Source of the DNA: Nitrosotalea devaniterrae
GTDB lineage: Archaea > Thermoproteota > Nitrososphaeria > Nitrososphaerales > Nitrosopumilaceae
Assembly (NCBI GenBank): GCA_900065925.1
Contig: LN890280.1
Coordinates: 984,451 to 1,048,450, forward strand
Length of the DNA stretch: 64,000 nucleotides
Reading direction: 5' to 3'
Notes under the pieces: model-generated
Database searches by the model: none
The model's input: the letters and a program-made list of their open reading frames with translations, nothing else
What the model was told of the DNA's origin: nothing
Made by a program: the position numbers and the translations under genes
In this document: positions 28,188 to 44,946 of the stretch, one piece after another
How positions within the stretch are numbered: position 1 is the first letter of the stretch
How the letters are laid out: every line of letters begins with the position of its first letter

Positions 28188-29909
28188 TTATGGAAATGTC
28201 GGCTTGCTTGCTATTGATGCAGATGCAGTATTGGACGGGTTACTAGTTCCAACATCATTAATTGCAGATACTTTGTACGTGTATGTTTTTAGCGGTAGCA
28301 CATGTGTGTCAGAGTAAGTCGTTCCAGTACTGCCAGTGTTTGCAACTATGGTAGACCACGTGTTGCCGTTGTCAGTTGATCTCTCTATCATGTAGCCGGT
28401 AATTGGCGTTCCACCGGTATAATTTGGCGTTATCCAGCTTAGAGTTATCTTGAGAAGCTGAGCAGTAACTGTTAGCCCAGTTGGTGATGATGGTATCATA
28501 CTAGTATATGCCAGTGTTGTTTTGCCAGCTAGCTCACCAGTAGGATAAGTTAGAACAATTGCATAGTTACCCGATGTAGGAAATGCAGTATTTGTAAATG
28601 GTCCTGGACATAATGAGGAGTCTCCTCTGTCAGCAACACAAGCTTGCTGTGTAGTGTATATCTCAAGTTGTAGTTGTCCTTGTAATCCAGTTCCTATTGT
28701 ATAAGTTGCGGTGGCGGAATTGCTAGGATCAAATATGGTCACTGAGTCTTGTTCTCCAAAAATACCAGCATATGCTCTACCCCCAATACTGGCACTTCCA
28801 TCGGACAACTCACCTGCTGAAAAGTACACGGAATTATTGTTAATCCATGAGGGGATTTCTTTTGTTACAATCAACTCATTGTCGTATGTAACAACTAGAG
28901 TATAGTTTCCTTTACCATCGCTCCGTGATATGTCATGCTCATCATGGAAAGATGTTGATTCGGTTTTATTGTATACCAAACTGCCATTTGGCGCATATAC
29001 TTGGAACGGTACTTGATTTATTCCAGGTACTGGATTTTTTACACCACCTTCTGTTTTCAGATCACCATAGCAACAAGTTAAGAAACCCGCATAAATCGAG
29101 ATGTTACTAGTGGTCACAGATGCAGTATTTGATGGAGAGCTTGTTCCAACTGAATTTATTGCAGATATTCGATAAGTGTAGGTCGTTCCAGATTCAAGTC
29201 CAGGATCTGCATACGTGGTATTACTATTGCCAGTATTTGCAACTATTGTAGACCATGTGTTTTCACTGTCAGTTGATCTTTCAATCATGTAGCCAGTAAC
29301 CAGTGCGTCACCATTGTTTGTTGGGGCAGACCAGCTAAGACTTATCCCAAGTGGTGAAACTAGAGTTGCAGTAAGATTAGTGGGAGGTTGTGATATAGTT
29401 GGAGGAGCAGATAACCAGTTAACATTGAATGTAACCCCGCCATACGTGAATGTGTTGAATTGTACTTGTTGTATTCCTTCGTTGCCAAAGTTTCCTGGAT
29501 GTATCTGGGATCTACTTACTGTTACATTTTGATTTGGATCTGTGCCGCCAACACATTGCCCCAAGAAATATCCGGGAGCACTGGTGTCGTACCAAGTAGT
29601 GCCTGATAGAGAATTATTTTGGGAACTTGTACTTGGAATCTGGATTACAAATGTTACATTATAACTTGAGTATCTATTCACGTTGAATGTAACACCTGGA
29701 TTTGCTATTGGATCAAATGTTTGAGTACCATTGTTTATTAAAAAAGAGACAATCGGTCCATCATATCTATTGGAGCAGGTTGAGGGGGCATCTCCCATAG
29801 CAAATGCGTTGCTTGTCGATAGCACAAGAATTGTAAACAATATTGAAGCGGATGCTATGGTGAGTAATTTGACATGTTGGTTTTTTTCTCGTCTAATCAA
29901 GACTTTCAA
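28188..29909 (-). CDS. Large secreted protein with two fibronectin III modules
   Basis: The signal peptide (LLTIASASILFTILVLSTSNAFA) is followed by an N-terminal beta-rich domain (about residues 40-170), an fn3 module (about 175-270, GYMIERSTDSENTWSTIVAN), a middle beta-rich domain (about 275-470) and a second fn3 module (about 475-565). It has no membrane anchor or sorting signal at its C-terminus (ends SKPTFP), so it is probably released or bound non-covalently. The start codon is TTG. The fn3 modules are nearly the same as those of the two other large proteins in the island. The function is unknown; adhesion or surface matrix is plausible. Confidence 0.8.
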   Translation of the reverse strand: MKVLIRREKNQHVKLLTIASASILFTILVLSTSNAFAMGDAPSTCSNRYDGPIVSFLINNGTQTFDPIANPGVTFNVNRYSSYNVTFVIQIPSTSSQNNSLSGTTWYDTSAPGYFLGQCVGGTDPNQNVTVSRSQIHPGNFGNEGIQQVQFNTFTYGGVTFNVNWLSAPPTISQPPTNLTATLVSPLGISLSWSAPTNNGDALVTGYMIERSTDSENTWSTIVANTGNSNTTYADPGLESGTTYTYRISAINSVGTSSPSNTASVTTSNISIYAGFLTCCYGDLKTEGGVKNPVPGINQVPFQVYAPNGSLVYNKTESTSFHDEHDISRSDGKGNYTLVVTYDNELIVTKEIPSWINNNSVYFSAGELSDGSASIGGRAYAGIFGEQDSVTIFDPSNSATATYTIGTGLQGQLQLEIYTTQQACVADRGDSSLCPGPFTNTAFPTSGNYAIVLTYPTGELAGKTTLAYTSMIPSSPTGLTVTAQLLKITLSWITPNYTGGTPITGYMIERSTDNGNTWSTIVANTGSTGTTYSDTHVLPLKTYTYKVSAINDVGTSNPSNTASASIASKPTFP

Positions 29910-29942
29910 ACTATTCTATTTTTCAATACATATTCAGATATG

Positions 29943-30186
29943 CTAAAAATATTCTATAAGATCAATACAGATGAAATGTAACATTGTTAGTTTAAAAAAC
30001 ATGGATCGGGCCGGAAATGGCCTGTTTTGCGTTCCATCATACCTAATTTTCCATCGAAGTGATGAGTTTTCATTTTCTAAATCTAGTCCTATAAATGCCA
30101 TCACTGAAATAATACCAATTAGCAAAACGGGAACTGCAAATGAAAATTCAGGTATTGTTATAGTATCTTGTTCAGCAAGAGTCTAG
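29943..30186 (-). pseudogene. Remnant of a PEFG-type sorted surface protein (C-terminus)
   Basis: On the minus strand, after an in-frame TAG, the frame reads TLAEQDTITIPEFSFAVPVL, then LIGIISVMAFIGLDLE. This matches the thaumarchaeal PEFG C-terminal sorting signal: a PEF motif, a hydrophobic helix and then a tail. The rest of the protein is missing upstream and the normal short basic tail is replaced by unrelated sequence running into repeat C. It is the broken end of a surface-protein gene. Confidence 0.5.
29995..30034. repeat. 40-base repeat C, copy 2
   Basis: Identical over 40 bases to the copy at 26825-26864. It lies about 86 bases upstream of the TTG start of the large fn3 protein gene and inside the broken surface-protein remnant. 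Confidence 0.8.
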
Positions 30187-30298
30187 GCTCCATCTACTGC
30201 CTCCCTATTATAAAAAAGGAATGGAATTTAGTAAAAAACTTCTATTTCCATAAATTTTTTATAATTACAGAAGATCATAATACAGATCTATTACTTAC

Positions 30299-30458
30299 TC
30301 TGGGAGTGAGTGCGCCTTATTTACTAATGTTGTGTTGTCCAGTACATGCTTTACCATAACCGCGATATGTCATGTGATTCACATGACATGGCTTATCCAT
30401 CGTGCGGTATGAAGATTAGGCCACTTTATACACACAAAAAGCACAAAGGAGAATAAAA
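30299..30458 (+). promoter_or_regulatory. Shared upstream control region E, copy 1
   Basis: About 160 bases align with the region upstream of the secreted-protein gene whose start is at 42385 (minus strand), including TGCTTTACCATAACC, a TGTCATGTGA-centred palindrome (30368-30388), CGTGCGGTATGAAGA, a TATA-like CACTTTATA (30422-30430) and AAAGGAG (30445-30451) seven bases before the ATG. The palindrome TGTCATGTGA-T-TCACATGACA has perfect 10-base arms and lies about 50 bases before the TATA box. Confidence 0.7.
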
Positions 30459-31112
30459 ATGAAAATACAGAACAACAAAATAAAATCTGTAACAACTATT
30501 GTCGCAATAGTTGCTATCGCATCAGTCATCCTAGGACAATCTACACTTCCTGCATACGCAACAATGATACGAGATTTTGGACCTTGGAGTCTCACTTATT
30601 CAACACCGAGTGGTTGCAATAATACTCAAACATGCGCAAGTGCTGCCACCTCCGGAGTTAATAAGATCATAGCATATGCAACATTTGAAACTGATGATGA
30701 AGTAGCTAATGCTGTTAACAACGATAATAATGTCAACGTTGGTTCATCGCCATCATTGACTACCTCTGCTAGCAGCGTTTACTTTGAGGTAGGTGCTACA
30801 TATTCAGGAGACTTTTTACCAGCAACTAATGGGGAAACAGCATATTGGATTACGAATACCATATTCGAAAATGGGAGTAACCCAGTAAATCAATGTTCGT
30901 TACCTACTGTGACAGGTTCTGGTGTAGTGTCAGATACAGTGGCAGTTAGTTGTCGCATGTCAAATAGCGGTACAAACACGTACTATGAAGCACCATATCA
31001 TGGTGTTGAAGCATTTAATCTACAAAATTCAGTTGGAACCTCAAAGGCTGACTTTTGGAATTCTCCCTACAACGCACAAACCAATTATTTGGAGATTTGT
31101 GATTCTTGCTAG
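30459..31112 (+). CDS. Secreted protein (217 aa), unknown function
   Basis: A signal peptide (SVTTIVAIVAIASVILGQSTLPAYA) precedes a mature part of about 185 residues with cysteines in GCNNTQTCA, QCSLPTV, VSCRMS and the terminal CDSC. The mature part looks beta-rich and could hold disulfides. A Shine-Dalgarno-like AAAGGAG precedes the ATG, unusual here, where many genes look leaderless. The promoter region is shared with the 346-residue secreted protein at 42 kb, so the two are probably co-regulated. I do not recognise a family. Confidence 0.75.
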   Translation: MKIQNNKIKSVTTIVAIVAIASVILGQSTLPAYATMIRDFGPWSLTYSTPSGCNNTQTCASAATSGVNKIIAYATFETDDEVANAVNNDNNVNVGSSPSLTTSASSVYFEVGATYSGDFLPATNGETAYWITNTIFENGSNPVNQCSLPTVTGSGVVSDTVAVSCRMSNSGTNTYYEAPYHGVEAFNLQNSVGTSKADFWNSPYNAQTNYLEICDSC

Positions 31113-31118
31113 GTGAAT

Positions 31119-31616
31119 ATGATGAATAAGATCAGAAAAGTAGTATATGTTACAACTGCATTGCTAGCTGTAATTGCCATTTCTAGCATAATGGGTATTA
31201 ATGCTCCAACCACTGTAGCACAAAATCTTCATCTGTACGATATCACATATTATGTATCGCTACCTACGTCTGACATAGTTATGAAACCAGGTGATGTCAA
31301 AATCATCCCAGTAACCATATTTTCCCAGCAAGATGTTCCATTGAATGTTAAAGCTGGTATTACACTACATGGAAGTGAACATTCTTTCGTTAGTACTGGA
31401 ATGAACAAGTTGCCAAATGGCATATCTGCCACATTGGACAAGAATGTTTTTGATTTGTCACCTACCACGTTGAAAGGTTATGCTCCAAGAGATACAACGA
31501 ATTTGACTATTGTTGCATCTCAAAATGTTCAACCTGGAAAGTATAGTGTTTCAGTAGGCCTGTTTAAGGACAATGGCGAATCCAACTTCAGAATAATAAC
31601 CCTAGAGATTCAATAA
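31119..31616 (+). CDS. Secreted beta-sandwich protein (about 165 aa)
   Basis: It starts six bases after the previous stop codon, so the two genes form an operon. The choice among GTG 31113, ATG 31119 and ATG 31122 is open. A signal peptide (YVTTALLAVIAISSIMGINA) precedes one immunoglobulin-like beta-sandwich (PGDVKIIPVTIFSQQDVPLN to PGKYSVSVGLFKDNGESNFR), resembling the bacterial and archaeal surface-protein 'additional' domains. No anchor is visible. It probably acts with the upstream secreted protein. Confidence 0.7.
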   Translation: MMNKIRKVVYVTTALLAVIAISSIMGINAPTTVAQNLHLYDITYYVSLPTSDIVMKPGDVKIIPVTIFSQQDVPLNVKAGITLHGSEHSFVSTGMNKLPNGISATLDKNVFDLSPTTLKGYAPRDTTNLTIVASQNVQPGKYSVSVGLFKDNGESNFRIITLEIQ

Positions 31617-31712
31617 CTATCTCAAATCCCTTTTTTATTATTTAGAAATCTTCTGTAGTTGAAATACTAATTCATTTTAAACTATCATTTGAGTCTATAG
31701 GTTGATGAAATA

Positions 31713-32348
31713 ATGGAGATTATTCCTGTCTTCGTATTGATACACGTATTTCTGTCACATGTTTTTTTTCTAGGTTTAGGATCTCCACTAGGAAGTGCAA
31801 ACCCGATAGTAAAGGGAATGATTGCATCTGCCTTTGGCATCATGGGCATTTCTGTAGGCCTCAACCTGCTTAATGCATTGATAAAACGAAAGATGGTAGA
31901 CCAAGAGAAACTCAAAAGACTCCTAAAAGAAACAAGGGCTTGGCAAAAGGAAAGAATGGCTGCATTCAAATCAAAAGATCTGGCAAAGACAGATGAGCTC
32001 AACAAAAAATCTGCATACATGAACAAGATGAACATGGAAGTGATGCAGATGAACATGAGACCAATGATGATTACATTTCTTCCATTGATTCTTGTATTCT
32101 ATTTTGTGCTTCCTCCATTATTTGCTTATACTGTTGCCGTCTCACCTATATCGCTAAACTTTATCCCTGGGGGATTTTTCGAATTGACCTGTACTGCAGC
32201 CAAAGTGGCAGAATCTCAACTTGCTGGTCATCCAAGTGTGTGTCATCATGTAAATGAATTGTATTTCTGGGCATGGTACTTCTTTTCATCTGCTGCCTTT
32301 AGTGGTATCATAATGAGAGTTACAAAAACTACAATGGATACAAGCTAG
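31713..32348 (+). CDS. DUF106/EMC3-TMCO1-like membrane protein (YidC/Oxa1 superfamily)
   Basis: Domain order: an N-terminal membrane helix, a second helix (ASAFGIMGISVGLNLLNALI), a charged coiled-coil hairpin (QEKLKRLLKETRAWQKERMA) and Met-rich segment (MNKMNMEVMQMNMRPMM), then two more membrane helices. This is the layout of archaeal DUF106 proteins, which are related to YidC, Oxa1 and EMC3 insertases. The usual archaeal copy lies near secY, whereas this one is inside an island among secreted-protein genes. It may assist insertion or folding of those proteins (inference). Confidence 0.82.
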   Translation: MEIIPVFVLIHVFLSHVFFLGLGSPLGSANPIVKGMIASAFGIMGISVGLNLLNALIKRKMVDQEKLKRLLKETRAWQKERMAAFKSKDLAKTDELNKKSAYMNKMNMEVMQMNMRPMMITFLPLILVFYFVLPPLFAYTVAVSPISLNFIPGGFFELTCTAAKVAESQLAGHPSVCHHVNELYFWAWYFFSSAAFSGIIMRVTKTTMDTS

Positions 32349-32401
32349 TTACACAATGAAGGAAGAAAATCTCTTAAAGGTAATGAGTTTTCATTTTCCA
32401 A

Positions 32402-32815
32402 TTATTTGTAACCTGTGCCATATACTATGTTGAAAATTGTATTCTTACCTGAAAACACTGAAATAAAATGAGTTTGTTTATGAGGATAATCCGGAACATA
32501 AACTGTGTAATTTCCAGCGAGAAGTTGTATTGAATAATGTGCATTAACATCAGAGAAAGTTTTTCCTACAACGGTAGTTCCATCTGCGGTATACACATCT
32601 ACCTCATAGTTTGATTTTGGACCTGACAGATTGGCAGGGCCTCCAGCTAAAACCACAATGCCAGAAAGCGTTCCATATCTTTCATTTGATTGAGGATCAA
32701 GTTTTGCTGTAGTTGTAACTATCTCACAGCCTACCTCAGTATAGTTGTGTACAATTTCGACTGGTTTTAGATTGATTACTACAAGTCCATATGAACCATG
32801 GAAGTGTAATAACAT
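32402..32815 (-). CDS. Carboxypeptidase-regulatory-like beta-domain protein (137 aa), possibly truncated
   Basis: The central GTLSGIVVLAGGPANLSGPK to LLAGNYTVYVPDYPH region is a carboxypeptidase-regulatory/transthyretin-like beta-sandwich, a fold common in surface proteins. The N-terminus (MLLHFHGSYGLVVIN) has no signal peptide, so either the protein is cytosolic or its 5' end has been replaced. The first nine codons and the upstream 160 bases are duplicated at 38.36-38.55 kb, in front of unrelated sequence, which supports a recombination event at this start. Confidence 0.65.
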   Translation of the reverse strand: MLLHFHGSYGLVVINLKPVEIVHNYTEVGCEIVTTTAKLDPQSNERYGTLSGIVVLAGGPANLSGPKSNYEVDVYTADGTTVVGKTFSDVNAHYSIQLLAGNYTVYVPDYPHKQTHFISVFSGKNTIFNIVYGTGYK

Positions 32816-32976
32816 TCTAAGATTTAACTTTGTCTTATGAAATTTATTTTAGAATATTTTGTACAAAACGGGATCTACAAAAAATACTGGTGTTAGTGAC
32901 AATTTTGGACTCCGTAAAATCACCAAAAGTAGCATGATGTGGGTATTGAACTAATATTGTAATACCCATCAAAGGT
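32789..32976. repeat. 190-base direct repeat D, copy 1
   Basis: From ATATGAACCATGGAAG to ATACCCATCAA the sequence matches 38361-38550 with only scattered substitutions and one-base indels. It includes the first codons of the 137-residue gene and hairpin repeat A copy 2. The two copies are in the same orientation and bracket 5.4 kb. Confidence 0.85.
32941..32967. repeat. Hairpin repeat A, copy 2
   Basis: GGGTATT and AATACCC form a 7-base-pair stem (8 with the flanking T/A) around GAACTAATATTGT, followed by CATCAAAGG. It lies about 100 bases beyond the stop of the propeller protein gene. Confidence 0.75.
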
Positions 32977-33069
32977 TGTATCATAGACCTGAATTCATTA
33001 TGAAATAGTAACTAGGTCCTACAGACTCGGATCTTACTGGATCAAGTTATCAAAAATTTTGTTACTACT

Positions 33070-34605
33070 TTATGGTGTATATGTTGCAGTCAAAGTTTCA
33101 TTTCCAGTAGGTGTTATGTTCTTATAATTATTCATGCTTCCACCATCCCAATGTAAAAATACATAGTTTAGATAATTTGCAGCATAGACTGTGTACTGTG
33201 TATTTTGAACCACATCGAACTTTACTGGTGTGTATCCAGTAGCAATTGTATCTCCATTTACAGAATGTAATTCCACCCATATTCCTGTAATTGGATTGCC
33301 TAACACATCTTTTGCAATTACAGTAAGTATAGCCATAGTAGTTGCAGATGACATATTGGATGGATTGCTTGTTCCGACGGAATTGATTGCAGATACTCTG
33401 TATGTATAAGTTGTATTTGGAGAAAGTCCTGTGTCAGAATACGTGGTAGCTGTGGAACCGGTGTTGGATTGTAAAGTGGACCAAGTATAACCGCTGTTAG
33501 TTGATCTCTCTATCACATATCCAGTAATCGCAGGGCCACCATTGTTTGCTGGAGCAGACCAAGATAGATTGATTTGTGATGACGATGTAGAAGTTGCCAT
33601 AAAATTCTGTGGGGCAGATGGAATAGTAGTACTGCCATCAATTACAGAAATGGTTTTGCTGTTAAAATTATCTACATAGATCTTGTTTGTGTTGGGATTA
33701 ACACCAACATCATGAGGATTATTTCCAACTAGTATTGTACTTACTACATTATTGGTTGAACCATCTATTACAGAGACTGTATTATCATATGCATTTGCCA
33801 CATAGATCTTATTTGTAGTTGGATTCACACCTATGCTGTTTGGATGACTTCCAACAGGTATTGTACTTACTACATTATTGGTTGAACCATCTATTACGGA
33901 GATTGTATTACTGCCTATGTTAGATACATAGATCTTATTTGTAGTTGGATTCACACCTACAGCCCATGGATTGCTTACCGTTATGGTATCCATTACACTA
34001 TCAGTTGTCCCGTTTATGACAGAGATCGTATTGTCAAGAGCGTTAGTTGCATAGATCTTATTTGTAGTTGGATTCACACCTATGCTGTTTGGATTCATGC
34101 CAGATATTTTTGTCACGCTATCAGTTGTTCCATCGATCACGTATACTCCGTTTTGTGGGGCAGCTACATAGATCTTATTTGTAGTTGGATTCACACCTAC
34201 AGCCCATGGATTGCTTACCGTTATGGTATCCATTACACTATCAGTTGTCCCGTTAATTACGGAGACAGTATTATTATTTTGATTAGCTACATAGATCTTA
34301 TTTGTAGTTGGATTCACACCAACACCGTGTGGAAAATTTTCAACTGTTATTGCACCTGTAACAGTATCAGTTGCACCATTAATTACAGAGACTGCGCTAC
34401 TGTCCACAAGAGATGCGTAGATCTTATTCGTAGCAGGATTTACACCAAGGTATTCTGACTTGCCTCCTAAGGTAATGGTAGACATAACATTATCAGCAAA
34501 TGCGTTATGTACTATTCCGAATGATGTAAGCAATATTAAAACAAAACCAATTGTGAGAAGGCATGCAACATGATGGTTTTCTCTTTCATTTTTAATCTTG
34601 AACAA
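33070..34605 (-). CDS. Secreted YVTN beta-propeller with fibronectin III module
   Basis: A signal peptide (LLTIGFVLILLTSFGIVHNAFA) precedes about seven 40-residue repeats of the type GVNPTTNKIYVAN followed by TVSVIDGSTNNVVSTI (about residues 38-330), forming a YVTN/NHL-like beta-propeller. An fn3 module (about 335-425) and a terminal beta domain ending YFLHWDGG-type sequence then TATYTP follow. There is no membrane anchor. The blades are very similar at DNA level, so recent repeat expansion or homogenisation is likely. A surface or matrix binding role is plausible. Confidence 0.88.
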   Translation of the reverse strand: MFKIKNERENHHVACLLTIGFVLILLTSFGIVHNAFADNVMSTITLGGKSEYLGVNPATNKIYASLVDSSAVSVINGATDTVTGAITVENFPHGVGVNPTTNKIYVANQNNNTVSVINGTTDSVMDTITVSNPWAVGVNPTTNKIYVAAPQNGVYVIDGTTDSVTKISGMNPNSIGVNPTTNKIYATNALDNTISVINGTTDSVMDTITVSNPWAVGVNPTTNKIYVSNIGSNTISVIDGSTNNVVSTIPVGSHPNSIGVNPTTNKIYVANAYDNTVSVIDGSTNNVVSTILVGNNPHDVGVNPNTNKIYVDNFNSKTISVIDGSTTIPSAPQNFMATSTSSSQINLSWSAPANNGGPAITGYVIERSTNSGYTWSTLQSNTGSTATTYSDTGLSPNTTYTYRVSAINSVGTSNPSNMSSATTMAILTVIAKDVLGNPITGIWVELHSVNGDTIATGYTPVKFDVVQNTQYTVYAANYLNYVFLHWDGGSMNNYKNITPTGNETLTATYTP

Positions 34606-34830
34606 TTGTTTCTATCTTAACATCATTACATATCTGAATATGCATATAATATGATAGAAAATAAAAACAGAAGATTCTACCAGTTGAAACTAGATGTGTA
34701 AGAGTAAGATTATCAACAGATCATCCACTATTGAAAGACTGGTTACAGCCCAATAACACCGCATAATACCCACTGATTTCATGCTTAACATAATGGACAA
34801 AGTTTGCATCCGGAATAGGCGTCAAAAAGG

Positions 34831-37362
34831 TTAACAGCCGGCATTTGTTGCTCGGTAGTAAACGTTTAGAGTGGCCGTACCTGAAGGAGTAGTGATTGTA
34901 ACTGGATTTGAATATTTGATATTGTTATAAACCCAGTAATCAGGAACCATACAATTGCCCGCATGCACTGCTAGCTTTGTTGCGTTTATTGTATATGGCC
35001 ATCCCTGAGTAGCGTTGTATGTAACAGGAGTGAATGCTTGGCTTCTTGTGAGAGTATAGTTGCTCACACTAGGACCTTGGTAGATGAGCTGATCAAAGCC
35101 AGTAATAGTTGCATTATTGTTTGAATCGTTGAGTGATTGAATATGTAATGATGCTGACGTATTATTGAGATAACTTGTCAAACTGGCAAGATATGATGGT
35201 ATGTCAGTCCAAACAGTTGAAGGTGTATCACTAGTAATAAATAAGAGACTAACCCAAGGTGCTGTTTTTTGAACTTCGTTTTTGGTTATAGATGGTTGAT
35301 TATATTCGAGATAACTAAAATTACTCTTGTCATATTGCGTGTGCCAAGAGTCTATAGGAAAGCCAGTATTGTCAGATCCTGAGTTACAATTGTTTGAAGT
35401 AATGTTGAAGCCCTGAAGAGTTGCGTTATCTAATTTGTTTATATTTCCACACGCATTAGAAGAATTTGTGTTCTCATAAATTACCATTTTATCTACAGTT
35501 CCAATAAAACTTGGAGACGTCTCATCACCAGGATTTCCTATACTATATACAAATTTACTGTGGATATAATTTGTCAGATTTTGGTAGTAAGTCAAAATTC
35601 CACTAGTAGGATTGTTTGACATCTCATCAAGAAATATTCCTTTTACCCCACTTTGTTTATAGCATTTTGCCCATTGGTCTACCCAGGATGTTGCAGTGGC
35701 ATAAGGTACGCCTCCCAAATCCCAATCTGTACGTACATATCCTAATACAATGACACCTGCCTTTGTCAGATTGCCTATTCCATTCTGGTAATCCATTGTT
35801 CTATTTTGAAATGAGGAATAGTTTGGAGAACAATTTCCACCCGTCCCATTTCCAGGTCCATTATCTGGATTGACAATCACAAAGAAAGGCACATGAGGAT
35901 ATGTAGTAGCAGAATCGTTGACAGATTGCCACTTAAACGCACTAATGTTAGTGCATGTAGATGAAACATCAGAATAACTATAAGGGTCGCAATACAGTGG
36001 TTCTAAAATTCCCGTACTAGAATGCCAACTAGATAAAGTACCAGAAGTAGTTGCAGAGGCCGTACTGGATGGAGAGCTTGCTCCCCCACTGTTAAGGGCA
36101 GATACACGGTATGTGTAAGTGGTACCAGATGCAAGTCCAGTGTTAGAATATGTTGTTCCAGTATTGGTTGTGTTTGCCACAATAGTAGACCAAGTACTGC
36201 CTCCATTAGTTGACCTCTCGATCTTGTAACCGTTCAAGGTACCATTACCGCCAGTCGGTGCTGTCCAACTGAGATCTATCTCACTAGATGAAATCGTGGT
36301 GGCCGTGAGACCAGTAGGAGAATTAGGCAGTGTGGTTCCCGTCACATTTGACGAGTATGTACCAAGTCCAACATCATTCCACGCAGCAATGTGAAACTTG
36401 TAAACACTGTTTGCCGCAAGGGAAGTTACATTATAGTTAGTAGTGGTACTTCCAGTATTGTTGACTACATCAACCCAAGCAGTACTTGCCCTTTGAATTT
36501 TGTATCCTATAATAGATGATCCACCGTTGTCAGACGGTGCAGTCCAACTTAGTTTTAATTGAGTGGTAGAAGTTGCAGTTGAAGTAGGATTTGTTGGTGC
36601 ACCGGAGACAGTAGATGCTTTCACCTCAATTGCAACATCATCCCAAAGTTCACCAGGAGTTGCAGTCCAACTACAAGTTACAGAGCCTGCTGATGCTTTA
36701 ATTGTTGAACTTGATGCCCCAGTGATTCCACCATTAAGCGCATTTGGTACATTAATATTCCATCTTTGCGTACAAGTGGGGCTACTTAGTGTTGCAGCTC
36801 CGTTGATTGCAGTAGAGTCAAGAACCCAGCTGTTCGAATATGCAGTTGTTATAGATATCGTAGGACTATTAGCAATTGTATTATGATTTGTTGCCGTAGT
36901 AGGGACGGGGTTTGTCTGACTCACTCCAAAGAAAGAGTATGCACCAACTACAACCTGAGCAGGAGCACTCAATGTAACAACAATATTTGCAGGTGTACTA
37001 CTGGGATTCTTCAGGTACCACAATTCAGCATCATTGTTAGTAAATGAGGATACCGCTTTTGTCAGTGATACTCCACCAAATGTGATTGAGCTTACCGATG
37101 CAGTGTTTGCCTCTACACCAACTACCAGCACACGGTCACTTCCAGTACCGACATTAAAGTTAGAAAGTGTGATTTGGAATAATGGCAATACTACTGAGCC
37201 GGATGTTGTCTTGGTACCATTCAAGACGATTCCACCTGTTGCACTTGCAGTTTGCGATTGCATGAAATTTATTGGAATTATTTGTGAAACTGGAGCAAGA
37301 AATAATATCAGGATAACACCAGTATAGAAAAATGGTCTGGTATATTTTTCTGACATTTGCAA
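34831..37362 (-). CDS. Secreted fn3 protein with Spherulin-4/GH135-like glycosidase domain
   Basis: Domain order: signal peptide; a beta-sandwich N-terminal domain (about residues 40-250); two fn3 modules (about 255-345 and 350-440); a domain of about 280 residues resembling Spherulin-4 (GH135); and a terminal beta domain with YYRATNAGC. The GH135-like region contains VPFFVIVNPDNGPG, AGVIVLGYVRTDWD and GVKGIFLDEMSNNP; the LDE carries the acidic pair expected at the active site. Known members cleave alpha-1,4-galactosaminogalactan. The protein probably hydrolyses an extracellular amino-sugar polymer (inference). The promoter carries a long inverted repeat shared with a divergent winged-helix gene. 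Confidence 0.78.
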   Translation of the reverse strand: MQMSEKYTRPFFYTGVILILFLAPVSQIIPINFMQSQTASATGGIVLNGTKTTSGSVVLPLFQITLSNFNVGTGSDRVLVVGVEANTASVSSITFGGVSLTKAVSSFTNNDAELWYLKNPSSTPANIVVTLSAPAQVVVGAYSFFGVSQTNPVPTTATNHNTIANSPTISITTAYSNSWVLDSTAINGAATLSSPTCTQRWNINVPNALNGGITGASSSTIKASAGSVTCSWTATPGELWDDVAIEVKASTVSGAPTNPTSTATSTTQLKLSWTAPSDNGGSSIIGYKIQRASTAWVDVVNNTGSTTTNYNVTSLAANSVYKFHIAAWNDVGLGTYSSNVTGTTLPNSPTGLTATTISSSEIDLSWTAPTGGNGTLNGYKIERSTNGGSTWSTIVANTTNTGTTYSNTGLASGTTYTYRVSALNSGGASSPSSTASATTSGTLSSWHSSTGILEPLYCDPYSYSDVSSTCTNISAFKWQSVNDSATTYPHVPFFVIVNPDNGPGNGTGGNCSPNYSSFQNRTMDYQNGIGNLTKAGVIVLGYVRTDWDLGGVPYATATSWVDQWAKCYKQSGVKGIFLDEMSNNPTSGILTYYQNLTNYIHSKFVYSIGNPGDETSPSFIGTVDKMVIYENTNSSNACGNINKLDNATLQGFNITSNNCNSGSDNTGFPIDSWHTQYDKSNFSYLEYNQPSITKNEVQKTAPWVSLLFITSDTPSTVWTDIPSYLASLTSYLNNTSASLHIQSLNDSNNNATITGFDQLIYQGPSVSNYTLTRSQAFTPVTYNATQGWPYTINATKLAVHAGNCMVPDYWVYNNIKYSNPVTITTPSGTATLNVYYRATNAGC

Positions 37363-37397
37363 CTGTATGAATTTTATAGATAAAAGACTATGGAAGA

Positions 37398-37426
37398 AAT
37401 TCTATAGTACTTTCTTCTATAGAATT
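37398..37426. promoter_or_regulatory. Inverted repeat between the glycosidase and regulator genes
   Basis: AATTCTATAG and CTATAGAATT are perfect 10-base arms separated by nine bases, centred 19 bases apart. The site lies between the start of the GH135-like gene (minus) and the winged-helix gene (plus). It is a good operator candidate for that regulator, or a hairpin in the 5' leader. Confidence 0.6.
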
Positions 37427-37495
37427 ATTATCAAAGAATTTAACAGTTAATTTTTACATATGCTTTTTAGGCTAGAAACGTTTTGAATATGGATC

Positions 37496-37801
37496 ATGAA
37501 ATACAGAGGCAGGACAGAAATTATTGCTGAACTTTTACAATCTGCTAGGAGCGGAGCTACAAGATCAAAATTAATGTTTGAGACATATCTTTCCTTTCCA
37601 CAAGTAAAAGAGTACCTAACATTACTCAATGAGAAGAAGATGGTAACGTATAATGAAAAGACATTGTTCTATACTACAACTGAGATCGGAATGAGATTCT
37701 TGCACATGTGTGAAGAGATGAATGAATTACTTTTACTTTCTCAAAAGAGACATATTCAGAACAAAGGATCTCAAGTTATATCGCTTTTCATTAAGATGTA
37801 A
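37496..37801 (+). CDS. Winged-helix regulator (HTH_45-like, 101 aa)
   Basis: It starts MKYRGRTEIIAELLQSARSG with the recognition segment GATRSKLMFETYLSFPQVKE, then a wing (KKMVTYNEKTLFYTTTEIG). This is the archaeal HTH_45 type (ArnR-like), often a single-domain DNA-binding protein. It is divergent from the GH135-like gene and shares an inverted-repeat promoter with it, so it probably controls that gene or itself. Confidence 0.8.
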   Translation: MKYRGRTEIIAELLQSARSGATRSKLMFETYLSFPQVKEYLTLLNEKKMVTYNEKTLFYTTTEIGMRFLHMCEEMNELLLLSQKRHIQNKGSQVISLFIKM

Positions 37802-37914
37802 CAGTTTGTCTAGTAATTAGTCAGTTTAAAATTCGTTAGTCATTTTACAAAATGTAAATTCTTGTGCATCAAGTCAAAGTTTAATCTTATGCAAAGGGCG
37901 TGTATTTATTGACC

Positions 37915-38133
37915 CTAATTTGCGCCTGCTATCAATGTATAATTCTCTATCTTTCGTGTGTTGATGTCTATTCGTATCTTTTCTATCATTACATTGTTAA
38001 ATATCACAATCCGTGCTGTAACTACCCACACTTTATCTATTAAAGCGGCGTCAATGTCTTGAACAGAAAAGTGTTGTCTAAGAAATTGTATTGCTATCTC
38101 AATCACTGTTTGTTTATCAGTGTGTAGAGTCAT
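37915..38133 (-). CDS. Small alpha/beta protein (72 aa), unknown
   Basis: The pattern IAIQFLRQHFSVQDIDAALI then VWVVTARIVIFNNVMIEKIR and DINTRKIENY looks like one helix followed by a three-stranded sheet, similar to PepSY-type folds. It has no signal peptide or membrane helix. It has no recognised function. Confidence 0.55.
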   Translation of the reverse strand: MTLHTDKQTVIEIAIQFLRQHFSVQDIDAALIDKVWVVTARIVIFNNVMIEKIRIDINTRKIENYTLIAGAN

Positions 38134-38360
38134 TTGATATGACGCAAATATAGATTAAGATAGCAAATAAAGAATATGTAAGATTTATTGGTAAAAATCT
38201 TCCATAAGATACATCTAAGCCTTCAGTAGGATATTCAACCTGGCGGAATTAATCAATCAGTTTAGTTCCCCGCTTTAAAATACGAATGAATTGACTTTGG
38301 TTCAAGTCCACAGGGAGATTGTTGTCCTCAACCATGATGTGAAGACTGTTGTTTGAAATT
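38134..38360. other. Non-coding stretch before direct repeat D copy 2
   Basis: No gene is supported here. Immediately upstream (in minus-strand sense) of the duplicated start codon in repeat D, the frame reads MLLRFHGSYNFKQQSSHHG then stops, so a gene fragment has been joined to unrelated sequence. Confidence 0.4.
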
Positions 38361-38550
38361 ATATGAACCATGGAAGCGTAATAACATTCTAAGATTTAAC
38401 TTTGTCTTATGAAAATTTATTTTGGAATATTTTGTACAAAACTGGATCTACAAAAAATACCAGCGTTAGTGATAATTTTGGACTCCGTAAAATCACCAAA
38501 AAGAGCATGATGTGGGTATTGAACTAATATTGCAATACCCATCAATGGTT
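38361..38550. repeat. 190-base direct repeat D, copy 2
   Basis: Matches 32789-32976 in the same orientation. Contains the first nine codons of a second copy of the 137-residue gene (now broken) and hairpin repeat A copy 3. It lies just beyond the stop codon of the 84-residue membrane protein gene. Confidence 0.85.
38514..38540. repeat. Hairpin repeat A, copy 3
   Basis: GGGTATT..AATACCC stem with loop GAACTAATATTGC, followed by CATCAATGG. It lies about 22 bases beyond the stop codon of the gene at 38562. Confidence 0.75.
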
Positions 38551-38561
38551 TTAATCAAATT

Positions 38562-38816
38562 TTAAATTGGTATATTTCTTTTACATCTCATAATGATGAC
38601 TATACCAATGATCGATAAAATTACTCCAATTATTGTATAAAATTCAAAACCTTGAACATCTGGCAAAGGACAACTGCTGGCAGGATTCTTACATGCATTT
38701 CCATTTTTTTGTTCTTCTACAGTATGAATGGCCATTATTGTAAAACCACCAAATAATACCGAAATAAATAATCCCGCCGCCAGAACTAATCTTCCAATAA
38801 TTTTATTGTTTTTCAT
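38562..38816 (-). CDS. Small membrane protein, two helices (84 aa)
   Basis: Two hydrophobic helices (LVLAAGLFISVLFGGFTIMA and FYTIIGVILSIIGIVIIMRC) flank a short loop with two cysteines (NACKNPASSCPLPD). The loop probably faces outside with a disulfide or metal site. The family is unknown. A similar two-helix protein lies at 40994-41248. Confidence 0.65.
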   Translation of the reverse strand: MKNNKIIGRLVLAAGLFISVLFGGFTIMAIHTVEEQKNGNACKNPASSCPLPDVQGFEFYTIIGVILSIIGIVIIMRCKRNIPI

Positions 38817-38927
38817 TTTGATCTATATTGATTCGCATTGTTCTTAAGTATAAAGTATGATAATTTCTTCAAAAATTATAACATATATTTTAGAACACAT
38901 TGCATATAAAAAAAAATAAAGAAAGAG

Positions 38928-39998
38928 TTATGGACAATATGGGGCATTGAAGTAGCATGTGTATGTCATACTAGAGGGAGTTCCAGGTGTTGCAGATGGT
39001 GAAACATTTCCACCAAATCCACCTTTACCGTTGTATGAATATACATACGAATTTGCACTGCTTGTTGATGTGTCATAGAAACTGTAGTTGTACGTTAATG
39101 TTCCATAATAATATATGGCAGTGTTAGTACTTGCAGTTTCTTCTACCTCTGATCCACTAGGATATTGACAACCTCCACCAGTAGTATAACCTACATCGAT
39201 GTTATGTCCGGTATCTCCAGATATGGTGAATGTTGTAGATGCCCCAGAACCTCCTGAGGTGACACCCATGTAATACTTGCCTGCTGTGGTGGAATCTGCC
39301 CTGATGTATCCTGTAGCTGTACTACCAGTGGTAAATGCATGAGTGGTAGTAAATGGAAATCCTGCTGGTTCAGTACATGAACCAGTATTCCATAAATCAA
39401 AAGCTACAGACCAAGTTTGACCAAAGCCAAAGAAATTAGCATAGTCATACACTGCTGAGACTTGAGGCCAATACCCCGTAGTAGAAGTTTTTGCATCTAA
39501 CCAGTGGAAAAGATCAACACCAGATACATTTGACGTAGTCAAAGTATACGAGTCGGTTATTTCGTAGATCGAGTTTCCTCCTAGGTTGTAATGCCAGTAT
39601 ATAGAATCATACACTTTGACCGGTCTGTAAGTTCCTCCAACTAGAGGTGAAACCGACGCTTGTTTTCCATTGGATACAGTGGTTTGTCTTGTTTCATTAA
39701 CAAGTATTGGTGTGTGATGCCATTTACTAGGATCTACCTTAAATGGATTAGATTTTGCTGGACCCAAGTACTTAATTTCAGCTCCTGTTGAATTCCAATC
39801 AAGTATTCCTATCCAATCTGGGTGAATATCTGTTTGTTCATCAATTTTTTGCTGTAATGCAAGTGCATTTGATGGCAGCTCAGGATGTGAATGTTGTACA
39901 GTTGCTGCATTAGATTGCAATATCATTGTGTTGGGCAATATCAAGATGATTGATATTGCAGATGCAAGTAGGATTTTTCTATAGGTTTGTCCATTCAT
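38928..39998 (-). CDS. Secreted protein, paralogue of the 346-residue protein (about 356 aa)
   Basis: A signal peptide (ILLASAISIILILPNTMILQ) precedes a proregion-like segment ending HPDWIGILDWNSTGAEIKYL and a C-terminal beta-rich domain with cysteines (CQYPSGSEVEE and YTCYFNAPYC). The same order, with HPGWIGQLSWNKTSAQIDYL and CYYGNGAQIEEW, occurs in the protein at 41345-42385, so the two are paralogues. I start at the ATG giving MNGQTYRKILLA; ATG at 40040 and TTG at 40061 extend it and cannot be excluded. The function is unknown; a secreted, possibly proprotein-like, family is suggested. Confidence 0.72.
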   Translation of the reverse strand: MNGQTYRKILLASAISIILILPNTMILQSNAATVQHSHPELPSNALALQQKIDEQTDIHPDWIGILDWNSTGAEIKYLGPAKSNPFKVDPSKWHHTPILVNETRQTTVSNGKQASVSPLVGGTYRPVKVYDSIYWHYNLGGNSIYEITDSYTLTTSNVSGVDLFHWLDAKTSTTGYWPQVSAVYDYANFFGFGQTWSVAFDLWNTGSCTEPAGFPFTTTHAFTTGSTATGYIRADSTTAGKYYMGVTSGGSGASTTFTISGDTGHNIDVGYTTGGGCQYPSGSEVEETASTNTAIYYYGTLTYNYSFYDTSTSSANSYVYSYNGKGGFGGNVSPSATPGTPSSMTYTCYFNAPYCP

Positions 39999-40146
39999 TT
40001 GTTTCTTTTCTGTTTCTTTCTGAGAGGACTTTATTGTCATTGTCCAGTACAATACAAACAAAGTAATTAAGCCGCGCTTACTAGTGCAGTAGTATCACAG
40101 AAACAAGTAAGATTGTTCTAATACATTTTTCTGAAAATTTAAACTA

Positions 40147-40428
40147 TTATTTTGAAAACTTTAGAACTAATTCAATTCCACATTCGTTTACGCTTATCAA
40201 ATGTGAACCATCCTTGCCTATGTCTTTTCTGATAAGATTCATAATTTCAAGCCAATTAAGATACTGAACACATCTTTTGTAGCCAAGATTACACGTCATA
40301 GAGATGTGAGTTTTCTTTGATTTACTATTATGGCGTAAAAAACCAAGTATGCGTAGAACCGTCTTCCATTCTATTCTTTGAGGTATCGCTTCATAGCTTG
40401 AATCCAGAACTTGATTCGTCCGGGACAT
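40147..40428 (-). CDS. Winged-helix regulator (HTH_45-like)
   Basis: The protein has a winged-helix layout: helix (TVLRILGFLRHNSKSKKTHI), recognition part (SMTCNLGYKRCVQYLNWLEI), and a wing (NLIRKDIGKDGSHLISVNEC). It resembles HTH_45 proteins and the 101-residue regulator at 37.5 kb. It begins at the ATG (MSRTNQVL); a TTG 12 bases upstream is in frame. Its gene is directly upstream (same strand) of nothing but non-coding DNA and downstream of a structured region. Confidence 0.65.
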   Translation of the reverse strand: MSRTNQVLDSSYEAIPQRIEWKTVLRILGFLRHNSKSKKTHISMTCNLGYKRCVQYLNWLEIMNLIRKDIGKDGSHLISVNECGIELVLKFSK

Positions 40429-40583
40429 GACATAGTACAAGTCATTTTCTATTTAAGATATGCGCATATTTCACATCATTACATCATATAGAACCATATG
40501 ACTACTGCCATTCCAGATATTGTTAGTAAAGTACAAACTATTTTAAACCACAAAAATCATGCTTTAAAAAGTCTTTATCGTTC
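40429..40583. other. Non-coding stretch upstream of the regulator gene
   Basis: No open frame of note. A TATA-like CTTTAAAAA at 40563-40571 lies about 20 bases before repeat B copy 1 and could be a promoter for a small transcript starting near the repeat. Confidence 0.35.
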
Positions 40584-40625
40584 GGGTATTGAACAAATTT
40601 GACCAAACCCACCCCCGGTATACCC
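40584..40625. repeat. Repeat B, copy 1
   Basis: The 35 bases GGTATTGAACAAATTTGACC continuing to CCCCCGGT (40585-40619) are identical to 42650-42684. Here GGGTAT and ATACCC (40584-40589, 40620-40625) close a hairpin around the core. It starts with the same GGTATTGAAC as hairpin repeat A. Confidence 0.78.
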
Positions 40626-40681
40626 TATCTAATTCGAGACCCAATTCATGAATTGAAATAAGCAATATAGAATCCGTTCAT

Positions 40682-40731
40682 TGGGTTTCGAAATACAGGT
40701 GCGAAACCCACCCGAAACTTGGAAGGTTTCG
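40682..40731. repeat. Tandem hairpins built from GTTTCG/CGAAAC arms
   Basis: TGGGTTTCG..CGAAACCCA forms a 9-base-pair stem with an 11-base loop (40682-40710). It is followed at once by CGAAACTT-GGA-AGGTTTCG (40713-40731). As all arms share GTTTCG/CGAAAC, alternative pairings are possible. It lies in a long gene-free stretch and may be a structured RNA or a recombination site. Confidence 0.55.
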
Positions 40732-40902
40732 AATCAGCAAAATATAGTAAAACTAAATACTAATTTATAACGAAAAAACATTACAGTATAAGATAACCGA
40801 AAACAGAAAAGTTCTAGTGCACATCAACAAATGTACGAGTTGTTTCCTAAGTTTGCTGAGAACTGGACAATTCTACAAGTGAGCATTACAGGATCCAATC
40901 TT

Positions 40903-40937
40903 ATGGGTAGGTTTTGAACTAATGGTACAATACCCAT
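40903..40937. repeat. Hairpin repeat A, copy 4 (diverged)
   Basis: ATGGGTA..TACCCAT stem enclosing GGTTTTGAACTAATGGTACAA, followed by CAAAGG. The TTGAACTAAT and CCCATCAAAGG blocks match the other copies while the loop has changed. It lies about 57 bases beyond the stop codon of the gene at 40994. Confidence 0.65.
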
Positions 40938-40993
40938 CAAAGGTATGTTCATCATTTAAAAAATAACTATTCATAATTAATTCGCATTGGTTA

Positions 40994-41248
40994 CTAATTC
41001 ATTATTGTATGTTTCTCATTCCATTTTTTAAAATGAATAGTTAACAGTGTAACTCCTATTGATGAAAAAATAATAGAAAACACAGTATAAAATTTCATAA
41101 GATTTGGTGAAGGATCGTATGCAAAAAATGATTTACTAATAGCGAGCCATTTAACATAGTATACGTAAGTGTTGACATCTAGAGTTAGAAGCACTATTGC
41201 AAATATACAGGATATCAGACCTGCAAGAGGGTAAGTTTTCATAAGCAT
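40994..41248 (-). CDS. Small membrane protein, two helices (84 aa)
   Basis: The helices are PLAGLISCIFAIVLLTLDVN and KFYTVFSIIFSSIGVTLLTI with a loop containing VKWLAISKSFFAYDPSP. It begins with a cytoplasmic Lys and ends in a charged tail (HFKKWNEKHTIMN). It resembles the 84-residue protein at 38562 in size and layout. Function unknown. It starts about 95 bases after the stop of the 346-residue protein gene in transcription sense. Confidence 0.65.
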   Translation of the reverse strand: MLMKTYPLAGLISCIFAIVLLTLDVNTYVYYVKWLAISKSFFAYDPSPNLMKFYTVFSIIFSSIGVTLLTIHFKKWNEKHTIMN

Positions 41249-41344
41249 ATTACCACTCTGTTAAAAATAAAGTTTAGGGAATTCAGTTCCATGTTTCCAC
41301 AGACACCGAATATATTCACCATGCATCATTTGTAGATGTCATTA

Positions 41345-42385
41345 TCAACACGTACTAGAGGATCCACAATCGTATGTAATCGATGACGGATTGTCTGTTG
41401 GTGAAACTGTAACTCCTGAGCCGACTTGCTGAACTAAACCATCGAATCCAGTATCAATTGTTGTTGTTGATCCGGATGGTAAAGTATATTGGAAGTCATA
41501 TGAATCAGATACGAAGTTATACGGCGTAGTCCCAGTAGACCATTCTTCGATCTGTGCTCCGTTCCCATAATAACAAGTAACTCCTGGTGTACCACTCTGT
41601 CCCAAGTTTATTGTGTTTTTTCCCATATCTCCAGAAATACTAATTGTCGTGGAACTTCCAAGAAGTGCAAGTGTATCAAGTGCACTCAAAGAATATTGGC
41701 CCGCAGTAGATGTACCAGAAATGAATGATTGGATTGGATCATGATTACTCCATGTACCCATAAGCGAAGAAGGCGTATTGACAAATGGTGTACCGCAGTT
41801 GGTGCCGACGGTCCAAGCTTGAAATACTACTTTCCAACCAATACCAGTAGAGAATTGGCCTAAGTTATCATACACAGTTCCAACTTGAAGCCAGTCATTA
41901 CTATTGGAATTGAAGGCATTCAGGAGCTGTATGTAATTAACAGCACTAGGAGCTTGGATTAGATTGTAGTTACTCTGTATCTCTTGCATAGTTTGTCCAT
42001 TTGTTCCTCCTCCCCCACTTGCTCCTTTTATCGCGTCAACATCATTTACAAGTTGAGGATCGGATTTGTGATGACCTGGGTTCTGACTCAAGTCAAAGTT
42101 TGGACTCACTTTAGGCGGTCCTAGATAATCTATTTGTGCACTAGTTTTATTCCACGATAGCTGTCCTATCCATCCTGGATGAGATTTCAGATCTTCTGAT
42201 ATTTGACTCTCTAACACACTTGCCTGCAAAGGTACTCTCGGATCATTAAAAGGCGCAAATGGTAAACGTGTGGGTAGACCATTTACATTAGGTAACACGG
42301 TGGTTGGAGACAATATCATCATGAAAACTACTATCGATGCAGTGATTACGAATACAGTTTTTGTGTTATTGTTTTGTCTTTTCAT
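41345..42385 (-). CDS. Secreted protein (346 aa), paralogue of the 38.9 kb protein
   Basis: A signal peptide (VFVITASIVVFMMILSPTTV) precedes a charged propeptide-like segment (SQISEDLKSHPGWIGQLSWN then SAQIDYLGP), a flexible Gly/Asn-rich linker, and a beta-rich domain (residues of about 150-345) with cysteines in TNCGTPF, VTCYYGNGAQIEEW and the terminal CGSSSTC. The order and motifs are the same as in the protein at 38928. Two similar copies and a shared promoter with the 30.5 kb gene imply a co-expressed secreted set. A protease with an inhibitory proregion is one speculative reading; no catalytic motif was recognised. Confidence 0.72.
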   Translation of the reverse strand: MKRQNNNTKTVFVITASIVVFMMILSPTTVLPNVNGLPTRLPFAPFNDPRVPLQASVLESQISEDLKSHPGWIGQLSWNKTSAQIDYLGPPKVSPNFDLSQNPGHHKSDPQLVNDVDAIKGASGGGGTNGQTMQEIQSNYNLIQAPSAVNYIQLLNAFNSNSNDWLQVGTVYDNLGQFSTGIGWKVVFQAWTVGTNCGTPFVNTPSSLMGTWSNHDPIQSFISGTSTAGQYSLSALDTLALLGSSTTISISGDMGKNTINLGQSGTPGVTCYYGNGAQIEEWSTGTTPYNFVSDSYDFQYTLPSGSTTTIDTGFDGLVQQVGSGVTVSPTDNPSSITYDCGSSSTC

Positions 42386-42545
42386 TTTTTATTCTCCTTT
42401 TGCTTTTTGTGTACATAAAGTGGACTAGTCTTCATACCGCACGATCTGTTGTCCATGTCATGTATCTCACACGACATACCGTGGTTATGGTAAAGCATAT
42501 CCAGTACAACGCACCAAAGTAGTTAAGCCACGCTTACTCTGGGAG
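42386..42545 (-). promoter_or_regulatory. Shared upstream control region E, copy 2
   Basis: Reverse complement of the region before the 30459 gene. It contains AAAAGGAG before the ATG, CACTTTATGTACAC (TATA-like), CGTGCGGTATGAAGA, the near-palindrome at 42456-42476 (TGTCGTGTGA-G-ATACATGACA with one mismatch) and TGCTTTACCATAACC. A shorter third relative (40045-40112, AGTAAGCGCGGCTTAATTACTTTG) precedes the 38.9 kb gene. Confidence 0.68.
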
Positions 42546-43725: not shown

Positions 43726-44946
43726 TCAGACATGGCTTGTAGAGACTAGTACTTTGTTATTCGGTTGAATAGTGCATTGAAAAGTTACCTGATTTTGATG
43801 ATCTTTGTAATTTGTTACAGGATCTTCCCAATTTACTTTCACACGTTCCTGCAATCCTTTTCTAATCTCTGCCACTTCATTTTCAAGATGAGCTATTTTT
43901 GCATCCTTTTCAGATTCCATTTCGTGTATTTTTTGGTCCTTGAGCTTGTTTTCAATCAATAGTCTTTCTGCATCATCAATAGTCAGATCAGGTATTGCCT
44001 TTCTGAATTCTGTAAAGCACTCTTCTCTTGTTGGTTGAAGATAAGTACCATCAAGACCATTTCTGTGTGCCATTAATTTTTCTGCAATGTTAGAATTAAC
44101 TTGATTATTTATCTTAAGAATTGTATTGAATCGCTTTCTAAAGCCATAATTTCCTGCCTTGTTATATCTCTCGCCACTCTTGATTCTAGCTATTCCAGCA
44201 GATTTTAAAAGATTTGAAGTGATCACTTTGAAACTATTGTATCCAAAATGGTCGTTTTTCGCATGCGCTCGTTCATTTGCAAAGATTGGAGACTCATCAG
44301 TAAGAACTTCACCGTTTAATTTCCTTGAATCAAAATAATTATACAATGCGCGTCTAGCCTCAGGTGTTAAAAATGCCCAATATCCCTCCTTTGAATTATC
44401 ATACACTTTTACTGCCAAGCACCCGTCAGGCATTTCTGCAATATGCTTTCGTCTCAAAATTGGATCAGTTATTGCACCCGGTCTTATTCCCGTGGATGCC
44501 AAAAAATGAACAAATGCCTTCGTTCGTAATTTTTTTGTGCTCTCCAACATACGCTGGATTTCCACGGTTGTAAAAGGTTCACTTCCGCCAAGTACACCCT
44601 CATCTCTTGGAATTATCTTGTGCAGTATTCTTTTGAAATATGTAACCCTATTCATATCCAAGAATAGTTCAACAGGTGCAAGTTTGACACGGATGGTAGC
44701 CCCTTTGATGCCTTTTGTAGATAAATCCATAATCCAGTTTTCCAGAATCCCTTGAAGCCTATTTGGTTCCACCACAGTAATTTCATCAAAACTTGAAAGG
44801 TTGGAATATTTCAAAAACTCTCTTAATGCATATCTGTATGAATAAAACGTCTTGTCAGATTTTACCGCTTGTCTGAACATCCTAAAAGATCTACTTTTTT
44901 CAAGTTCTGCAAAATCAATTTCCTTAGCGGTTTCCATGTCTTGCAT
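43726..44946 (-). CDS. Tyrosine recombinase/integrase
   Basis: Residues of about 20-115 form a SAM-like DNA-binding domain (YSYRYALREFLKYSNL). The catalytic domain has the first arginine in LASTGIRPGAI, a conserved lysine in VYDNSKEGYW, RII in GNYGFRKRFNT, the histidine in KLMAHRNG and the tyrosine in GTYLQPTRE. At box II the usual HxxR is YGFR, with tyrosine in place of histidine. A C-terminal coiled coil follows (KLKDQKIHEMESEKDAKIAH). The full length and intact core suggest it is active. It sits at the right end of the accessory island and probably mediates its integration or excision. Confidence 0.88.
   Translation of the reverse strand: MQDMETAKEIDFAELEKSRSFRMFRQAVKSDKTFYSYRYALREFLKYSNLSSFDEITVVEPNRLQGILENWIMDLSTKGIKGATIRVKLAPVELFLDMNRVTYFKRILHKIIPRDEGVLGGSEPFTTVEIQRMLESTKKLRTKAFVHFLASTGIRPGAITDPILRRKHIAEMPDGCLAVKVYDNSKEGYWAFLTPEARRALYNYFDSRKLNGEVLTDESPIFANERAHAKNDHFGYNSFKVITSNLLKSAGIARIKSGERYNKAGNYGFRKRFNTILKINNQVNSNIAEKLMAHRNGLDGTYLQPTREECFTEFRKAIPDLTIDDAERLLIENKLKDQKIHEMESEKDAKIAHLENEVAEIRKGLQERVKVNWEDPVTNYKDHQNQVTFQCTIQPNNKVLVSTSHV

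Follow-up and report, generated by a model that had tools for sequence, protein, structure and literature searches.

Two secreted-protein genes on opposite strands, starting at positions 30459 and 42385, lie in a 64,000-nucleotide stretch of the Nitrosotalea devaniterrae genome (assembly GCA_900065925.1, contig LN890280.1, positions 984,451 to 1,048,450; "the window" in the following). Their upstream blocks match at 79% identity over 200 bp (E = 8e-42), at exactly the positions where the initial annotation of this DNA had placed them. The block of the 30459 gene (copy 1) contains a palindrome, TGTCATGTGA-T-TCACATGACA, which is perfect over 21 bases at 30368-30388; the palindrome of the 42385 gene (copy 2) lies at 42456-42476 and shows three differences from it. 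The block CGTGCGGTATGAAGA is identical at 30401-30415 and 42429-42443, a GGAG stands ahead of both ATGs, and the two proteins belong to separate similarity clusters. These descriptive points had all been reported correctly. The regulon drawn from them survives in part: a single control module does sit on unrelated secreted-protein genes, but the palindrome as a protein-binding DNA site is not supported. Our comparison of all copies leads to the conclusion that the repeated palindrome is one hairpin (P2) of a predicted folded RNA of about 105 bases at the start of many secreted-protein messages of these acidophilic ammonia-oxidizing archaea.

DNA and covariance-model (CM) searches yielded 21 clear copies of the block from 14 of the 37 genomes of the genus. 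With a further copy (L057) from a groundwater metagenome-assembled genome (MAG), this amounts to 22 leader copies in 15 Nitrosotalea genomes or MAGs. Two of them (L013 and L015) are near-identical, so most counts refer to 21 distinct copies. A third full copy was found by DNA search in the same genome as the window (1614376-1614554). A genome-wide search for the palindrome, which had been proposed initially, returned, with up to three mismatches allowed, no more than the two sites of the window plus two weak single-strand matches. All 22 copies precede an open reading frame (ORF), as a 5' leader should. They stand before nine protein clusters and behind several different upstream regions. A weak and probably decayed copy (L067, G026:C122:7966-8065, E 0.0084) has the start of the element and lacks the conserved P3.

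The predicted fold is a three-way junction (P0, P1/P2, P3) with a pseudoknot that links the internal loop of P1/P2 to the loop of P3 (coordinates in Table 1). The CGTGCGGTATGAAGA block contains the 3' arm of P1 and the 5' arm of P3, and the joining strand ACCAUAAC is near-invariant across copies. The "TATA-like box" that had been taken for the promoter is the 3' arm of P3. It is located 34-40 bases upstream of the main ATG, and its sequence is CTTTATAC, CTTCATAC or CTTTGTAC depending on the copy, the paired arm being altered correspondingly each time; the promoter reading of this box was dropped.

Compensating changes back a conserved secondary structure of the kind expected from a structured cis-regulatory leader RNA. 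A plain MAFFT alignment of 19 copies was used, and the structure was written by hand after reading the sequences. Canonical pairs fill 93.0% of the pair cells, compared to 29-53% with the partner slid. Changes on both sides occur in 12 pairs (39 cells), against a maximum of 4 pairs (8 cells) in the slid control, and the covariation score, pseudoknot included, is 0.263 (slid maximum 0.078, shuffled 0.177). A CM-guided alignment of 22 copies shows 11 pairs with both-sided changes, a number that none of 500 shuffles reached; examples from P3 are GUAUGAAG/CUUUAUAC, GUACAAAG/CUUUGUAC and GUGUGAAG/CUUCACAC. Since a structure read from the same sequences gains from such controls, 1188 column pairs were also ranked by mutual information without use of the structure. 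Here a pseudoknot pair (49-77, model positions) came first and a P3 pair (67-85) second, with P2 29-41, pseudoknot 50-76 and P1 20-59 all within the first sixteen. In the five diverged copies (L019, L020, L021, L031, L048), the P2 hairpin is by inspection retained with quite different letters. RNAalifold, applied to the MAFFT alignment, recovered P0, P2 and P3 and placed P1 differently. P1 and a P3 extension are able to compete for positions 59-61, and that alternative shows no covariation. An alternative register of P1 (C17-G64 etc.) was dropped, since the covariation of L024 (C20-G59 to U-A) falls in the other one.

The start of the message can be predicted from genome statistics. In a set of 287 genes with ATG starts, drawn from 464 kb of this genome, TATA-like hexamers are most frequent at -31 to -28 relative to the start codon. 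A Shine-Dalgarno (SD)-like motif occurs in 20 of the 287, versus 7 at a control offset. A TATA peak at start codons together with rare SD motifs makes leaderless messages look usual in this genome. The leader copies have a TATA box (consensus CTTATTAA) about 30 bases upstream of an AUG at model position 3; transcription is accordingly predicted to start at, or a few bases before, this 5' AUG (30344 on the + strand for copy 1; 42500 on the - strand for copy 2), a placement supported by the genome statistics. With a start near the 5' AUG, the folded element would take up the entire leader as far as the SD, and this transcribed leader would be the conserved unit. In agreement with this, the identity between copies is 54% upstream of the promoter, 64% in the promoter, 85% in the leader, 58% at the gene start and 53% in the gene body (shuffled 50%).

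An upstream ORF of 36-39 codons starts at the 5' AUG and spans the fold. Of the 21 distinct copies, 19 keep it open. In 13 of 22 copies its stop codon and the main start codon overlap (ATGA or TTGA), and in 17 of 22 the spacing of the two start codons is the same modulo 3. A conserved small protein was considered and dropped, as the codon-position test and the ratio of nonsynonymous to synonymous changes (dN/dS) were unsupportive. It is likely, if unproven, that the upstream ORF serves as a coupling device and that the RNA fold is the main constraint.

We regard it as likely that the shared block is an mRNA 5' leader, a riboswitch-like folded cis-regulatory RNA of about 105 nt controlling translation. 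The predicted fold with its covariation, the position and the modular use on unrelated genes are strongly supported; control of translation by the fold is inferred, and the leader is probably a switch that determines whether the secreted protein is produced. In P0, the U and the G of the 5' AUG would be paired, and the 3' arm of this stem would end 4-5 bases before the SD GGAG, a placement by which a stabilised fold should hinder ribosomes at both starts. Once the fold opens, ribosomes would load at the leaderless AUG, translate the 36-39 codons of the upstream ORF and terminate where its stop overlaps the secreted gene's start; there the SD would permit initiation (hand-over). Candidate signals are a small molecule, an ion or pH, or a protein. 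A more specific scenario is possible but rather doubtful: a new riboswitch class of acidophilic ammonia-oxidizing archaea that hides a leaderless 5' AUG, with the first codon of the upstream ORF included in the folded aptamer, a ligand or pH gating ribosome loading, and hand-over from stop to start.

Several observations weigh against a leader switch of this kind. The five diverged copies have a weak pseudoknot or none. Folding of single sequences beats shuffles mildly (z -2.8 for copy 1, -1.1 for copy 2), and the lowest-energy fold of copy 2 differs from the conserved one. The P0 pairs scarcely vary, so that P0 is backed by energy and conservation, and the SD lies outside any helix. As to the upstream ORF, the conservation of its frame is merely suggestive, the tree having 12 length changes of which 5 change the frame versus 8 expected (binomial 0.07). 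The ORF is broken in L010 and L024 (one nonsense codon, one frameshift), and no selection on its amino acids was detected, codon positions varying alike and the third no more than the others.

The readings weighed here are not all mutually exclusive. A leader-peptide attenuator would make translation of the upstream ORF the main function, with the peptide or its codons sensing a condition and the hairpins secondary. Such a device would agree with an ORF that is mostly open, has its start codon where a leaderless start is predicted, in most cases terminates at the main start and keeps the spacing of the two starts modulo 3. Third-position changes are not in excess, however, and selection on a peptide or on regulatory codons was not found. 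Several of the covarying changes are nonsynonymous (Met/Tyr to Thr/Cys in P3), the nonsense and frameshift copies exist, and the core copies hold 1 stop where 1.8 are expected without selection. We treat an attenuator as a lesser possibility, less probable than not by a clear distance. A constitutive folded 5' end, which stabilises the mRNA or boosts translation of abundant secreted proteins without sensing, is unlikely. It would explain why the leader sits on many unrelated secreted proteins without a common pathway and why no obvious alternative fold hides the SD, but a pseudoknotted junction with the near-invariant ACCAUAAC exceeds the needs of a stabilising hairpin, and related genes with the same promoter lack the leader.

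The initial annotation took the palindrome for an operator in the DNA, bound by a dedicated regulator; an HTH_45 winged-helix protein would be an example. The perfect symmetry of copy 1 over 21 bases would suit an operator, and so would the HTH_45 genes found directly upstream, on the same strand, of 6 of the 21 leaders (L019, L024, L026, L030, L031, L057, all in other genomes), although this genome has only 16 HTH_45 genes; the guess of a winged-helix regulator has this much behind it, but neither window leader directly follows such a gene. The arms of P2, however, vary by copy (GCCGTGTG, GCAGTGTG, GTGTCAT, TGATC) and retain their self-complementarity, which speaks against a protein binding site; one and the same binding sequence does not recur at each site. 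The operator would also fall downstream of the predicted start and TATA box, the palindrome is not dispersed across the genome, and the covariation in P1, P3 and the pseudoknot would be left unaccounted for. Given the covariation and the genome-wide palindrome scan, the operator was dropped as very improbable. Recent duplication of 5' regions, by gene conversion of promoter, leader and signal peptide without any RNA function, is hardly credible. Otherwise unrelated genes do have signal-peptide starts (MKIQNNKTKT) in common, but recent copying yields identity and not covariation, the compensating double changes far exceed the shuffled and slid controls, and the diverged copies keep their hairpins with different letters.

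The linkage of HTH_45 genes to leaders and to the 38.9 kb gene (Table 1) makes a transcription factor at the promoter possible, separate from the RNA; HTH_45 proteins may regulate this type of secreted-protein promoter. A common operator upstream of the TATA box was considered as well and dropped, because the upstream regions are of several unrelated types and have no palindrome in common. A AGCTATTTTGAGCTAAAATAAT block shared by L010, L014, L016 and L048, which come from several genomes, 60 to 38 bases before the upstream-ORF start and 5' of the TATA box, is a possible operator or activator site.

Table 1. Leader elements and associated genes in the window (positions within the 64,000-nucleotide stretch; P0 to P3, helices of the predicted fold).
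Feature	Position	Strand	Remarks
TATA box, copy 1 (CTTATTTAC)	30316..30324	+	about 30 bases before upstream-ORF start; matches genome-wide peak distance
Predicted leader RNA, copy 1	30344..30451	+	model positions 1-108, predicted 5' end to SD; CM 119 bits, E 2.7e-24 in own genome
Upstream ORF, copy 1	30346..30456	+	36 codons + stop; begins at predicted 5' AUG; ends 2 bases before main start
P0 5' arm (UGCUUU)	30347..30352	+	overlaps 5' AUG; partner 30438-30443
P1 5' arm	30360..30366	+	partner 30399-30406; C-G to U-A in L024
P2 hairpin (palindrome)	30367..30389	+	arms 30367-30376 / 30380-30389; 7 of 10 pairs vary on both sides across copies
Pseudoknot 5' strand	30390..30393	+	partner 30419-30422; 3 of 4 pairs vary on both sides; top covarying column pair
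P1 3' arm	30399..30406	+	within CGTGCGGTATGAAGA block
P3 hairpin	30407..30431	+	arms 30407-30414 / 30424-30431; 3 pairs vary on both sides (22-copy alignment)
Pseudoknot 3' strand	30419..30422	+	inside P3 loop
P0 3' arm (AAAGCA)	30438..30443	+	just 5' of SD
SD GGAG of 30459 gene	30448..30451	+	
Secreted protein, 217 aa	30459..31112	+	cluster with L013, L030, L031, L057; without Pfam match
Second gene, 167 aa	31113..31616	+	similar gene after 30459-type gene in L064, L065
Related secreted protein, leader absent (38.9 kb gene)	38928..40040	-	same promoter; ATG 40040; TATA 40063-40071
HTH_45 winged-helix gene	40147..40440	-	directly upstream of 38.9 kb gene
Secreted protein, 346 aa	41345..42385	-	cluster with L014, L026; without Pfam match
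Upstream ORF, copy 2	42382..42498	-	38 codons; stop overlaps main start (ATGA)
Predicted leader RNA, copy 2	42393..42500	-	model positions 1-108; CM 116 bits, E 1.4e-23 in own genome
P3 hairpin, copy 2	42413..42437	-	loop strand 42422-42425 pairs with 42451-42454
P2 hairpin (palindrome), copy 2	42455..42477	-	
TATA box, copy 2 (CTTAACTAC)	42519..42527	-	

The 38.9 kb gene, described initially as preceded by a shorter relative of the block, has the promoter in common (AGTAAGCGCGGCTTAATTACTTTGTTTGTATTGTACTGGACA, about 40081-40041) but lacks the structured part, its ATG following at once: its reading frame begins where the leader would begin, behind the same promoter type. Its relative L014 in another genome, with 64% protein identity, carries the leader, which indicates that leaders are gained or lost between promoter and gene. 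The order of leader, cluster-A gene and second small gene seen at 30459 recurs in L064 and L065, and inspection shows it in L057 too. The downstream proteins match no family of Pfam or NCBIfam. A glutamic-peptidase-like fold for L012, L017 and L004, suspected from motifs, was dropped after a profile search of solved structures gave nothing, and an AlphaFold2 model of the 346-aa protein was unusable (predicted local distance difference test, pLDDT, 28.5; two-sequence alignment).

A structured mRNA leader is as such a known kind of element. What appears to be new is the family, together with its host and its arrangement around a leaderless start. No family of Rfam 15 matched above the score threshold, and viral contigs and plasmids gave no match. 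In samples of 400 genomes of the order and 398 of the phylum, no genome outside the genus matched, under stricter filters by which weak relatives may be missed. The open-licence literature that was searched describes no such element and no structured regulatory RNA for Nitrosotalea. With translation-initiation riboswitches the leader has in common a compact folded 5' leader ending at the SD, a junction, a pseudoknot and a conserved unpaired joining strand. Unlike these, it has no Rfam match, serves a variety of secreted proteins instead of a single pathway, contains what is probably a leaderless upstream ORF and, in these searches, is confined to one archaeal genus. The crcB (fluoride) motif RNA is a structured mRNA leader in archaea as well as in bacteria (PMC2864571); its Rfam model was in the searched library and the Nitrosotalea leader gave no match to it. 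Attenuators of the trp type likewise have a short ORF within a structured leader, ending near the main gene, but here no run of regulatory codons, no detected peptide selection and no visible terminator are present. Ribosomal-protein leaders of bacteria and archaea are also structured and cis-acting; as the genes downstream of the Nitrosotalea leader encode secreted proteins, self-regulation by an RNA-binding product is unlikely here.

Few structured leader classes have been reported from archaea. The present family shows strong covariation, includes a pseudoknot and has a clear gene set; a leaderless gene that can serve as a natural control lies 2 kb away in the same genome. The leader would tie secreted proteins of acid-soil nitrifiers to a decision at the RNA level, and it offers a defined case for how leaderless and SD-led starts might cooperate on one archaeal mRNA.

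Large secreted proteins with fibronectin type III domains, together with a beta-propeller protein and one with a Spherulin-4 domain, are encoded in a run at 28188-37362 of the window. A gene for an EMC3/TMCO1-like membrane protein (31713-32348, +) adjoins the secreted-protein genes, and a tyrosine integrase gene (43726-44946) lies near the run. A HicA-type toxin gene, assigned by Pfam, is located at 26256-26501 (-), and a gene for a Fic/DOC family protein at 26983-27870 (-).

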